Shown here in pieces: positions 26,622 to 32,753 of a stretch of 36,457 nt of DNA. How positions within the stretch are numbered: the first letter of the stretch is position 1; the number at the start of each line of letters is the position of its first letter. This DNA is from Nitrospinota bacterium (GTDB taxonomy: Bacteria > Nitrospinota_A > UBA7883): the NCBI GenBank assembly GCA_029881335.1, contig JAOUMU010000018.1, forward strand, positions 1 to 36,457, in the 5' to 3' direction. Under the pieces are notes generated by a model that did not search any database, was not told the DNA's origin, and worked only from the letters and a program-made list of their open reading frames with translations. The position numbers were made by a program, and so were the translations under genes.

Positions 26622-27461
26622 TTATGGAGTGGCCGCCACCATCGAAGATCGCAATCTGGCGCCCGGGTGGGCCGGGCTTCCATCGGGATTCGTTCGCTCC
26701 AAAAACTCAAAGACCAGATTGGCCCCATCCATGGAATAGCCTGTCTTTCGAAGAGCTGTTGCCGCAAACAGGTCCGCCTGAATCTCCTCCATGCAGCATT
26801 GGGCGGAGCCTTGCAGTTGCCCATCCGCCGGGATAGTGTGTCCCAGGTAGATGTGACCCAACTCATGGTATATAATGAAGGCCATGGCGGACTCGAAGAG
26901 GTTGCCCTGCTCCACCGGGCCGGACAAGGTGGCAGGCTGGTATTGCGATAAGCCCGCGGATGGATCACTGTCTTTATGTTTACCAGCGGACTCTTCCAGG
27001 ATGGACAGCAAGCCCAGGCTTACAGAGACTTCTTGTCCGTGGGAAAATGCGAACACATCGCCGCTGCCGCACGCCATGACCACCGCATTATGGTATGGGA
27101 TTTCTTTGGCTCTCTCCCCATAGGTCCGGGTAGCGCCAAGAAACTCCACTTTCCCCCAGGATGCGACTGGGGGATAGGCGGTGTTGAAACGGTGGATGGT
27201 GTTTTCGATTATTGCTCCGTATCCTGGTGGAACTTGTCCGGGGCAATCCGGATCGACGCGAAACTCCGATTCGTTGTGGAGCGTTGGCATTGTTGCTTGC
27301 GGAGCAGACATGCTTTTGGAGGAATCCTGTCCGGCGGGAAGGGCTTTCCCCATGGCAAACCCGGCCGCAGGTTCGCCGGTTCCACCGCAGGCCGCCAGCA
27401 ACAGCGCCGCGCCAGATAACCCCAGCGCCATTCTGAGACGGCGCAAGCCTGAATTTAACAT
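26622..27461 (-). CDS. Putative lipoprotein metalloprotease (M48-like)
   Basis: Lipobox ALLLAAC-GGTG; FIIYHELGHIYLGH zinc motif and downstream EEIQADLFAATAL (ExxxD third ligand). Confidence 0.75.
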   Translation of the reverse strand: MLNSGLRRLRMALGLSGAALLLAACGGTGEPAAGFAMGKALPAGQDSSKSMSAPQATMPTLHNESEFRVDPDCPGQVPPGYGAIIENTIHRFNTAYPPVASWGKVEFLGATRTYGERAKEIPYHNAVVMACGSGDVFAFSHGQEVSVSLGLLSILEESAGKHKDSDPSAGLSQYQPATLSGPVEQGNLFESAMAFIIYHELGHIYLGHTIPADGQLQGSAQCCMEEIQADLFAATALRKTGYSMDGANLVFEFLERTNPDGSPAHPGARLRSSMVAATP

Positions 27462-27611: not shown

Positions 27612-28556
27612 TTATTCGAGGGCGCTTCGGGAGAAAAATCCTTGGGGTTTGTTAAGAGGGATTTTAGCGGCGAAATCGAGAAGGTCGGTTTGACAGAAGC
27701 CAGGATCGAACAACTCGCTCAGGTCGTGCTCCTCGTGATGATGGCTGCAAAGCTTGATTTTTCCATCCGCGGAAAGCCAGAACCTACGGCATTCATAGCA
27801 ATTCTGCTGTCTGGAGCAGGTTAAAAGCTCCACCGATGGACCTCCGCCAGCTACATTCCATGTATATTGGTTTTCCCCTTGCTCCAGGTGGCAGGTCTTG
27901 CCGATCTCATCAAGGATCCAATCGAAAAAATCCTCACCACCTGTCTTCTCTTCCGTGGCTCTTACCGGGTAACCGTTCGCAGTGGCCCACAAGGCCACCT
28001 CGACCATCTCTTTTTTCGCCAGGCCGGGCGCTCTTTGAGTTTCGATGGCAACTTTCACTCCGAAACTTGCCGCAATATGAATTCCTTCCAGCAACTCATC
28101 CAAGGCGCCAAGGCCCTGTCCGGTAGTGGTCGAAAACTGGTCAGGGTCCACGGTGGGGATGGCGACCCAAAGCCTGTCCATGCCGACCTTGGACAACGGG
28201 CCGATGAGTGTGGGTAGCAACCGGCTACCGGTCCTGACTGTGATTTCCACCTTTGGACGGATGCCAGAGAGCCCGGAAACCAGTTCCACTATGTCCGGAC
28301 GCAAGAGCGGCTCCTTCCCGGCAAGCAGGGCCTTGTTCAGCCCCAGCGCGGACATGATTTTCATAAAGGACACTATATGCTCCGACGGAAACGAGGAAAC
28401 TAATTCCGCGTCACTCCCGTCGCCGGAGGCTACCTGACCGTTCGAGGGCTCGTCGCCCGCCAGAATCTCGATCAGGTCTAGTGGCCTGTTGAACTTATCT
28501 AACAACATAGCAGTGAACCTGATTTCAATTCTGGGCCTGCTTTCGGTCTGTGTCAA
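27612..28556 (-). CDS. MoaA-like protein lacking the radical-SAM CX3CX2C motif
   Basis: GLNKALLAGKEPLLRPDIVELVSGL parallels MoaA LTGGEPLLRKD; C-terminal CYECRRFWLSADGKIKLC equals the MoaA CX2CX13C cluster motif. The N-terminal position expected to hold CxxxCxxC reads DKFNRPLDLIEI. Start codon (TTG at 28556) uncertain. Confidence 0.75.
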   Translation of the reverse strand: MTQTESRPRIEIRFTAMLLDKFNRPLDLIEILAGDEPSNGQVASGDGSDAELVSSFPSEHIVSFMKIMSALGLNKALLAGKEPLLRPDIVELVSGLSGIRPKVEITVRTGSRLLPTLIGPLSKVGMDRLWVAIPTVDPDQFSTTTGQGLGALDELLEGIHIAASFGVKVAIETQRAPGLAKKEMVEVALWATANGYPVRATEEKTGGEDFFDWILDEIGKTCHLEQGENQYTWNVAGGGPSVELLTCSRQQNCYECRRFWLSADGKIKLCSHHHEEHDLSELFDPGFCQTDLLDFAAKIPLNKPQGFFSRSALE

Positions 28557-28626: not shown

Positions 28627-29673
28627 ATGACAGAAAAAGAGCTGATTACCCTGGGGATAGAGACATCATGCGATGAAACGGCGGTGGCTGTTTTGCGAGG
28701 CCCACACCAGGTTCTAAGTTCCCTGGTGGCGTCCCAGGATGATATTCACGGTGTCCATGGGGGTATCGTGCCGGAGCTTGCCTGCAGGCGGCATGTGGAG
28801 CTGATTCATCCGCTCACCCTCTCCGCACTGGAGAAGGCGAAAGTGGGCCTGGAGGATATCGGATTGGTGGCCGTGACCCGCGGGCCGGGGCTGGTGGGGG
28901 CGCTGCTGGTGGGGCTCTCATACGCCAAGGCTCTAGCCTGGGCTGCCGGGCTGCCGCTGGTGGGGGTCAACCACCTGGAGGGGCATGTCTATTCCGCCCT
29001 GGTCCATGAACCGCGGACACCACTGCCCTGTCTGGTGTTGATGGTATCCGGCGGCCATACGGAGCTTTTCATTATGGAGGCGTCATACTCTTTGACCTGG
29101 CTGGGAGGCACCCGAGACGACGCCGCGGGTGAAGCTTTCGACAAGGTGGCAAGGCTGCTGGGGCTCGGCTACCCAGGCGGCCCCATTGTCGACAAAATGG
29201 CCAGGGAGGGGAAAGCCGTGTATGACGTGCCGGTGGCGTTAAAGTCCCAGGATACGCTGGAATTTTCCTTCTCCGGGCCGAAAACCGCAGTGAAGAATAT
29301 AATTAACGGGCTGAACAAGGAAACGCCTGGCAGGCTGCCGGTGGCGGATATCTGCGCGTCTTTCCAATCCGCTGTGGCCCTGGCGCTGTATGGCAAGACC
29401 CGGCTGGCGGCTCAAAAGCATAAACCGGTGTCTATAGCCGTGGTGGGCGGAGTGGCGCGCAACTCGGCGGTGCGGGAGAAGATAGGCGCCCTGGGAAGAG
29501 AACTGGGAATACCTGTGACCATCCCCCCGCCGGATCTGTGCACGGATAACGCCGTCATGATAGCCGCTGCCGGGGCGGGGCTGTTTATCCGGGACAGGAG
29601 CAATCCCGCTTTCCGCGACTTCACCCAGATGGACGCGAAACCCTCCTGGCTCCCTGGCGTGCAGCTGAAATAA
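28627..29673 (+). CDS. tsaD: tRNA N6-adenosine threonylcarbamoyltransferase
   Basis: LGIETSCDETAVAVL, GGIVPELACRRHVELI, VNHLEGHVYSAL, LVLMVSGGHTELF, DDAAGEAFDKVARLLGLGYPGGP, GGVARNSAVREKI. ATG at 28627. Confidence 0.97.
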   Translation: MTEKELITLGIETSCDETAVAVLRGPHQVLSSLVASQDDIHGVHGGIVPELACRRHVELIHPLTLSALEKAKVGLEDIGLVAVTRGPGLVGALLVGLSYAKALAWAAGLPLVGVNHLEGHVYSALVHEPRTPLPCLVLMVSGGHTELFIMEASYSLTWLGGTRDDAAGEAFDKVARLLGLGYPGGPIVDKMAREGKAVYDVPVALKSQDTLEFSFSGPKTAVKNIINGLNKETPGRLPVADICASFQSAVALALYGKTRLAAQKHKPVSIAVVGGVARNSAVREKIGALGRELGIPVTIPPPDLCTDNAVMIAAAGAGLFIRDRSNPAFRDFTQMDAKPSWLPGVQLK

Positions 29674-31259: not shown

Positions 31260-32753
31260 TTAATTGAACGGATTCAATTTTCCGGAATACCTTTTGACAA
31301 ATCTTTTCACGTGAGAAGTCGCTCGAAAATCCCTCTTGTCTGTCATGCAGGTTATCAACCTGGGAATGGCGATCGACAGATAAAAATTCTTGATAGCGAA
31401 AATACGATATGTTCCGGTGTTCACTAAAAAGTTCACAAACCATCTGGGCAGGTGGGGCAGCCAGTGAAGTATGAAGGCCACCGCGGCCAGACGTCTGGCG
31501 TCAGAGACGCTGCCGCCGTAGTAGAAGCTGGGGTCGGAGGGCTGCTCCAGATTCGGGTCGTTGATCTCCGCCGCCTCAGATTCGGTCATCAAGCCGCTGG
31601 TTACCGCCTGGTCTATGATCTTTGTTTTCGGATAATACTTCAGCCAGAACACGCTTATCCCGTCTGGCCGTACTTTGTTGTAGAATCGCATGGCATCCTC
31701 CTGATTCTCCACCGTATCCTCCGGAACGCCCAGCATATGGTCCACCCGCACCATGATCCCCCTGGCCTTGGTCATTGCGATGGCCTCCTCGATCTTTTTA
31801 TTGTTAGATTTTCGGAATAGTATATCGCGGCACAAGTCCTCCGACACCGACTGAACCCCCATCTGCACGTTTACGCAGCCGGCTTCCTTCAGAAGATCCG
31901 CCTTGTGTTCGTTTTGCTGGAAGGGGGAAGTTATGCACTGGAAGGGGAGCCCAACCTCGGTCTTGTATTTTCGGCAAAACTCCTCCAGCCACTCGGTGTG
32001 GGTGGTGAAGCAGTCATCCACCAGTACAAAATACTTGACGCCCAAATGTTCCTTGGCGCGCTTGAATTCGGCGATTACCCGGTCCACATTGGTTTGCCGA
32101 ATGTTTCTTTTGCGTCCGCCCCCATTGGTGTATGAATATGCGCAATAGGAGCAGGCGTAAGGGCAACCCCTGCCGGTCATGGCCAGGTATTCATCTTTCA
32201 TCTCCGGCAGGTACGCCATGAACGGCTCTTTATTCGGGAACGGCAGTTCGTCCATGTTCGGAAGGTCACCGATGGTAAAATCGCCGATCATCGATCCGTT
32301 TCTTTTATGGATGATTCCGTTGGTCGCCTTGTCTGGCATGATGACGCTCCCATTGACCTTAAGAGAAGCCAGCCACCTGGGAAGCGAGACCTCAGCCTCT
32401 CCCATGGCCAGGGCGTCCACTTCATCGCGGGCCAAAGTCTCCTTCGGCAGGAGCGTGGGGTGGATACCACCGAAGATGGTGGTGGCCCCGCTTATTTTTT
32501 TCAGCTCTGCGGCCACTCGCACCTGGCTCTTGAAAATATCGCTGACCGCCGAAAAAGCGACCACATCCGGCGCCAATTCGGCCACCTTTCCGGCAAGAGC
32601 GGCGAAATCCAGATCGTGATTAACAAAATTAGTATAGGAATCATTGGCGGAATAAAAAACGAAATCAACTTCGTGCCCCTCTTTTTCGAGGACACTCATC
32701 AGGGATTGAACGCCGATGCTCTCCGCGTCTGGATATACAAAAGCAACTTTCAT
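31260..32753 (-). CDS. B12-binding-domain radical SAM protein
   Basis: N-terminal cobalamin-binding-like MKVAFVYPDAESIGVQSLMSVLEKEGHEVDF...TIFGGIHPTLLP; radical SAM CPYACSYCAY (CX3CX2C). Confidence 0.92.
   Translation of the reverse strand: MKVAFVYPDAESIGVQSLMSVLEKEGHEVDFVFYSANDSYTNFVNHDLDFAALAGKVAELAPDVVAFSAVSDIFKSQVRVAAELKKISGATTIFGGIHPTLLPKETLARDEVDALAMGEAEVSLPRWLASLKVNGSVIMPDKATNGIIHKRNGSMIGDFTIGDLPNMDELPFPNKEPFMAYLPEMKDEYLAMTGRGCPYACSYCAYSYTNGGGRKRNIRQTNVDRVIAEFKRAKEHLGVKYFVLVDDCFTTHTEWLEEFCRKYKTEVGLPFQCITSPFQQNEHKADLLKEAGCVNVQMGVQSVSEDLCRDILFRKSNNKKIEEAIAMTKARGIMVRVDHMLGVPEDTVENQEDAMRFYNKVRPDGISVFWLKYYPKTKIIDQAVTSGLMTESEAAEINDPNLEQPSDPSFYYGGSVSDARRLAAVAFILHWLPHLPRWFVNFLVNTGTYRIFAIKNFYLSIAIPRLITCMTDKRDFRATSHVKRFVKRYSGKLNPFN

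Follow-up and report, generated by a model that had tools for sequence, protein, structure and literature searches.

The window, a stretch of 36,457 nucleotides from a Nitrospinota bacterium (contig JAOUMU010000018.1), carries on its minus strand an unbroken open reading frame at 28556-27612, which the original prediction described as an intact ORF of about 314 codons. The frame is indeed open throughout, and the start had to be moved. The TTG at 28556, taken as the start, makes up the first three bases of the -35 box in a promoter-like sequence, TTGACA-N17-CAGAAT (28528..28556, minus strand; 10 of 12 matches), and both hexamers are identical in a sister species of the same genus (G001; the window genome is G000). 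G001 also has a 1-nt indel that shifts the TTG out of frame relative to the ATG at 28508, and most relatives start with a Met matching this ATG. Since the TTG lies within the -35 hexamer, the indel breaks the frame and the relatives begin at this Met, we rejected TTG 28556 as the start codon; the gene most likely runs from ATG 28508 to 27612 (27612..28508, minus strand) and encodes a protein of 298 residues. Residue numbers below follow the ORF, counted from TTG 28556. The gene is flanked by a divergent tsaD (28630..29673, plus strand), which marks synteny with G001, and, downstream on the same strand, by a gene for an M48-like lipoprotein with the HExxH motif of a metallopeptidase (26622..27461, minus strand; Pfam PF01435).

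Profile searches placed the protein near, and outside, MoaA. It scored 90.5 bits against NCBIfam TIGR02666 moaA (E-value 9.8e-26), under the curated cut-off of 284 bits, and 33.4 bits against Pfam Mob_synth_C, just under the cut-off; in the PDB it matched the MoaA of S. aureus (E-value 2.2e-8). The resemblance to MoaA is thus well above anything chance would give. The match to Pfam PF04055 Radical_SAM was above the gathering score (34.6 versus 29.5 bits, E-value 2.7e-8) and began at profile position 30, past the cluster region; judged by this score, the protein is a member of the radical SAM superfamily by descent. A search for a true moaA elsewhere in the genome, which had been suggested as a check, found a separate and complete one (C193) scoring 347.8 bits against TIGR02666, and moaC is present as well. 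The C-terminal double glycine, functionally important in MoaA (PMC3602415), occurs in 10 of 10 MoaA proteins of the order and is absent from the whole paralog family described below, the window protein ending in FFSRSALE. As side observations, the 94%-complete G001 assembly has moaC though no canonical moaA above 1e-35, which is probably an assembly gap, and another genome of the order (G007) has two full-length canonical moaA genes (C3:140106-141077 and C1:207838-208806) plus the paralog.

The original prediction regarded the protein as a MoaA that had lost its cluster. With a family profile (A2) built from eight full-length relatives, we found instead that it belongs to a separate, order-specific family of MoaA paralogs, supported both by profile score and by a tree clade. 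The family occurs in 8 of the 12 genomes of the order at 410–472 bits (410.7 bits for the window protein, at most 203 for MoaA proteins), and we found no further member in the 385 genomes searched, including 24 of the phylum, i.e., none in about 370 bacterial genomes beyond the order. Among the matches listed in a broader contig search there were only MoaA/NirJ-type relatives. Paralogs and MoaA were split in the tree at 100/100, and we thus rejected the possibility that the gene is a degraded duplicate of the moaA found elsewhere in this genome; the paralog family had shed hallmarks of MoaA (the GG tail and the equivalents of Arg17 and Arg268) by the time the cluster was lost. Six members, loci L043-L048 (in G003, G004, G008, G007, G011 and G009, respectively), have the full radical-SAM cluster motif, and two, those of the window genus, are without it. 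Like the window protein, to which they are orthologs with 28–36% identity over the full length, the six have the W in CxRxW, a C-terminus of the form AKIxLNKP and no GG tail; unlike it, they have CX3CX2C and TNG intact, as well as GGEP (GREP in one), and are without C222, C247, C288 and the HHH run. Across L043-L048 an intact cluster motif goes together with a missing GG tail; Arg268 is replaced by W and Arg17 by Q or E. The paralog adjoins an RlmD-like gene in G003, G008 and G009, and a sodium:alanine-type symporter as well in G003 and G008 (by eye).

Within the tree, the window genus nested among the paralogs of its own family, f1, at 96/96. The stem leading to the genus was 2.01 changes per site long and the tips 0.30–0.34; the long stem and short tips thus show a single derived loss of the cluster, in a burst in the ancestor of the genus, with slower evolution afterwards. 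Comparisons within the genus rest on two informative genomes, G000 and G001, as the assembly of the third (G002) is without the stretch. G002 has no copy of the paralog and also no copy of the universal tsaD, which led us to reject a true loss there in favor of an assembly gap.

The cluster columns of the window protein align without a gap to those of its relatives over the same 30-residue stretch. In the former radical-SAM cluster loop (residues 37-51, PSNGQVASGDGSDAE; 28404..28448, minus strand) C37 has become P, C41 Q and C44 S, and in the two genus members together positions 37/41/44 read P, Q/R and S; the loss of the SAM cluster was thus correctly predicted, and the G001 protein, without all three cluster cysteines, is a homolog with the same loss of the kind the prediction had proposed looking for. 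The place of the loss had been misaligned, however. RFTAMLLDKFNRPLDLIEI does not correspond to R-I-S-V-T-D-R-C-N-F-R-C in MoaA, as the true cluster columns lie downstream at residues 37/41/44, and on the family alignment we likewise rejected a pairing of DKFNRPLDLIEI with the Cys motif; DKFNRP is the conserved N-terminus of the paralog family, with D..-R as its counterpart in MoaA. The SAM motif GGEP is degenerate (GKEP, residues 80-83; 28308..28319, minus strand), as the prediction had seen; G001 also has GKEP, and the cluster-bearing relatives have GGEP (GREP in G004). A second SAM-binding motif, TNG, present in 6 of 6 cluster-bearing relatives and in 10 of 10 MoaA proteins of the order, is TGS in the window protein (residues 109-111; 28224..28232, minus strand) and TAS in G001. 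GKEP and TGS/TAS together uphold the proposed loss of SAM-binding features, although the change from TNG to TGS, like three new cysteines described below, was not part of the original prediction. The six cluster-bearing relatives share 51 invariant columns, and both genus members retain 35 of these. Those lost, concentrated on the SAM and substrate side of the protein, include C37, C41, C44, N180, N257, both N110 and G111 in TNG, and R77 (R71 in MoaA, Leu here). Among those unchanged are W260, G265, the cysteines C253, C256 and C270, the D20-K-F-x-R24 start and the K...NKP end. With the cluster cysteines and GGEP/TNG replaced, the protein would not qualify by function as a radical SAM enzyme.

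The C-terminal cluster motif has been kept, as predicted. CYECRRFWLSADGKIKLC (C253, C256 and C270; 27747..27800, minus strand) aligns exactly with the CX2CX13C of MoaA and is invariant in the whole paralog family and in MoaA. The window and G001 proteins have exactly six cysteines each, in identical places and all in the C-terminal domain, and three of the six, C222 (27891..27893), C247 (27816..27818) and C288 (27693..27695, all minus strand), have no counterpart in the cluster-bearing paralogs or in MoaA. C247, six residues ahead of the cluster motif, is Cys only in G000 and G001 and P/A/M/R/A/F in the cluster-bearing relatives. Also new are H223, directly after C222, and H272-H273-H274 straight after the third cluster Cys (27735..27743, minus strand), the run being found only in G000 and G001. 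Cys and His make up 7 of the 36 genus-specific conserved columns of the C-terminal domain (P about 6e-5 relative to the window's own protein composition, in a post hoc test that treats columns as independent) and none of the 31 such columns of the barrel. The auxiliary cluster of MoaA has three Cys ligands only, and C247 would be the leading candidate to supply the missing fourth.

An AlphaFold2 model had a pLDDT of 83.9 and a pTM of 0.83, with an input alignment of 17 MoaA homologs that biases it towards MoaA; without an alignment the pLDDT was 36. In the alignment-based model the pLDDT fell below 50 only in the old cluster loop, which is predicted to be disordered, and in the final six residues, and its top Foldseek match was MoaA 1TV7 (TM 0.81). 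Structure prediction, which had been proposed as a check for a MoaA-like barrel, thus gave a predicted MoaA fold, from a model whose alignment consisted of MoaA sequences. Compared with MoaA (TIGR02666; 1TV7, 2FB2), then, the window protein shares the predicted fold, the domain order, CX2CX13C and the N-terminal D..-R, but it has no CX3CX2C, has GKEP/TGS for GGEP/TNG, has no C-terminal GG, has replaced the equivalents of Arg17 and Arg268, and scores below the family cut-off; on these features it would not be assigned as MoaA (GTP 3',8-cyclase).

Taken together, we think it likely that this is a pseudo-radical-SAM Fe-S protein, derived from an order-specific MoaA paralog, in which the C-terminal metal site has been remodeled. 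The ancestral paralog would be the protein that is apparently still a radical-SAM enzyme in the relatives; a single loss in the genus ancestor removed the [4Fe-4S] site that cleaves SAM along with the SAM-binding residues, while the TIM-barrel scaffold and the CX2CX13C motif were retained and the C-terminal domain acquired Cys and His. Because the three cysteines and the SAM-binding residues are gone, established radical-SAM chemistry leads us to expect no SAM cleavage, and the 5'-deoxyadenosyl radical could presumably no longer be made, although a dependence on SAM via some non-Cys site may exist. The C-terminal Fe-S cluster would still be bound, probably with added ligands, and in place of radical chemistry the protein would have a structural or redox role, sense a ligand or act as a partner. 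A more specific version, which we hold only tentatively, is that the metal chemistry moved: the SAM cluster of the barrel was removed, and the open site of the auxiliary cluster was closed or extended by the three new cysteines and the His run, with the outcome that the MoaA scaffold now serves as a redox or sensor protein. Of the repurposed non-radical-SAM Fe-S protein originally proposed, the clusterless state, the retained C-terminal motif and fold, and the action of selection have stood; the view of it as a MoaA that lost its cluster has not, and GTP binding is doubtful.

The conservation data would also fit a protein that retains a structural [4Fe-4S] or zinc site and acts only as scaffold or regulatory partner to another protein, in which case the new cysteines would be incidental. 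Identity between the two genus members is 90–100% per 20-residue block in the GKEP region and at both extremes of the protein (the N-terminal edge of the barrel and the C-terminal end), and drops to 25–35% at residues 131-170 in the middle of the barrel, where part of the old active site appears to be drifting; constraint is thus strongest at the two ends, and NCBIfam already names cluster-free relatives of radical-SAM enzymes (TIGR04347 pseudo-SAM/SPASM). We nevertheless consider a scaffold role of this kind unlikely, as it is difficult to see the gain of three cysteines and three consecutive histidines within one domain as incidental, and no linked partner gene was found. The M48-like lipoprotein gene does adjoin the paralog in family f1 (G000, G003 and G004, plus G001 via overlapping contig ends), but it is present in 11 of the 12 genomes of the order, including some where the paralog is missing, and we assigned no functional link between the two.

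Slow decay of a dispensable enzyme, beginning with the active site and with the remainder to follow, could account for the long stem branch, for the low identity in the barrel centre and for the absence of the paralog from the 99%-complete G006, a genome in the same family-rank group as the window genus that has moaA only. We judge it improbable, however. The G000 and G001 paralogs are 66% identical with both frames intact, the promoter-like hexamers are the same, and the final 20 residues of the aligned core are 100% identical between the two species. The dN/dS between the two paralogs is 0.26, within the range of functional neighbors (tsaD 0.15, dsbA 0.28, lipoprotein 0.35, DUF4124 protein 0.15 and radA 0.07), and this purifying selection in two species agrees with the earlier statement that the gene is not a random pseudogene.

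The original prediction had also suggested a GTP- or nucleotide-binding role, and in MoaA itself GTP makes contact with the open iron of the auxiliary cluster (Hanzelmann and Schindelin 2006, as cited in PMC5715301). A sensor in which the C-terminal cluster offers an open coordination site in this way would be compatible with the C-terminal motif, with the equivalents of K69 and R192, all present in the window protein, and with R258 as the equivalent of R266. The remainder of the site argues against it: the residues mutated in the MoaA triple mutant 2FB2 (R17, R266 and R268, from the structure titles) correspond to E30, R258 and W260, and R71 corresponds to a Leu. Since the equivalents of R17 and R268 are replaced throughout the family, and so before the cluster was lost, R71 in the window genus and R266 in the sister species (Lys), GTP is an unlikely ligand, and we regard a nucleotide sensor as very unlikely indeed. 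Separately, we noted that R199, at the position of MoaA R192, is Arg in both genus members and Tyr in most cluster-bearing paralogs, an apparent return to the MoaA residue.

An assembly or frameshift artefact hiding the cluster, which a draft of 199 contigs might suggest, is hardly credible and was rejected as far as two assemblies can tell: CX3CX2C, whose presence in an upstream frame of homologs had been named as grounds for abandoning the prediction, is absent from the ORF and from the other two forward frames of the region, which carry stops, and G001, assembled independently and 66% identical in this protein, shows the same loss with a loop of equal length.

NCBIfam already has named entries for pseudo-radical-SAM proteins, and the MoaA-type lineage described here is unnamed. 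TIGR04347 of haloarchaea is similar, going by its NCBIfam name, in having a radical-SAM fold without the SAM cluster and with C-terminal cluster motifs, but the window protein scores 15 bits against its cut-off of 525, and TIGR04347 has a SPASM and not a MoaA-type C-terminus and is an independent lineage. SPASM/Twitch domains (e.g., in PqqE) have an auxiliary Fe-S cluster in the C-terminal domain, where the motif of the window protein likewise lies, but the spacing here is MoaA-type and the primary SAM cluster is absent. Roles given for SPASM/Twitch clusters in PMC5715301 include electron transfer and substrate anchoring, Twitch having a single auxiliary cluster. Clusterless relatives of MoaA were not described in any of the open-access literature searched. 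The unnamed MoaA-paralog family revealed here provides a rare case in which the defining cluster was lost, the auxiliary cluster motif was kept and cluster-bearing orthologs are still available; with six relatives that have the cluster and two that do not, the changes can be polarized, and what each of the two clusters does can be tested separately. The comparison suggests that evolution has turned an enzyme into another kind of metal protein. It also calls for caution, as automated naming could label the paralog proteins MoaA. Elsewhere in the window, away from the paralog, a gene at 31260-32753 (minus strand) encodes a B12-binding-domain radical-SAM protein with an intact-looking CPYACSYC (CX3CX2C).
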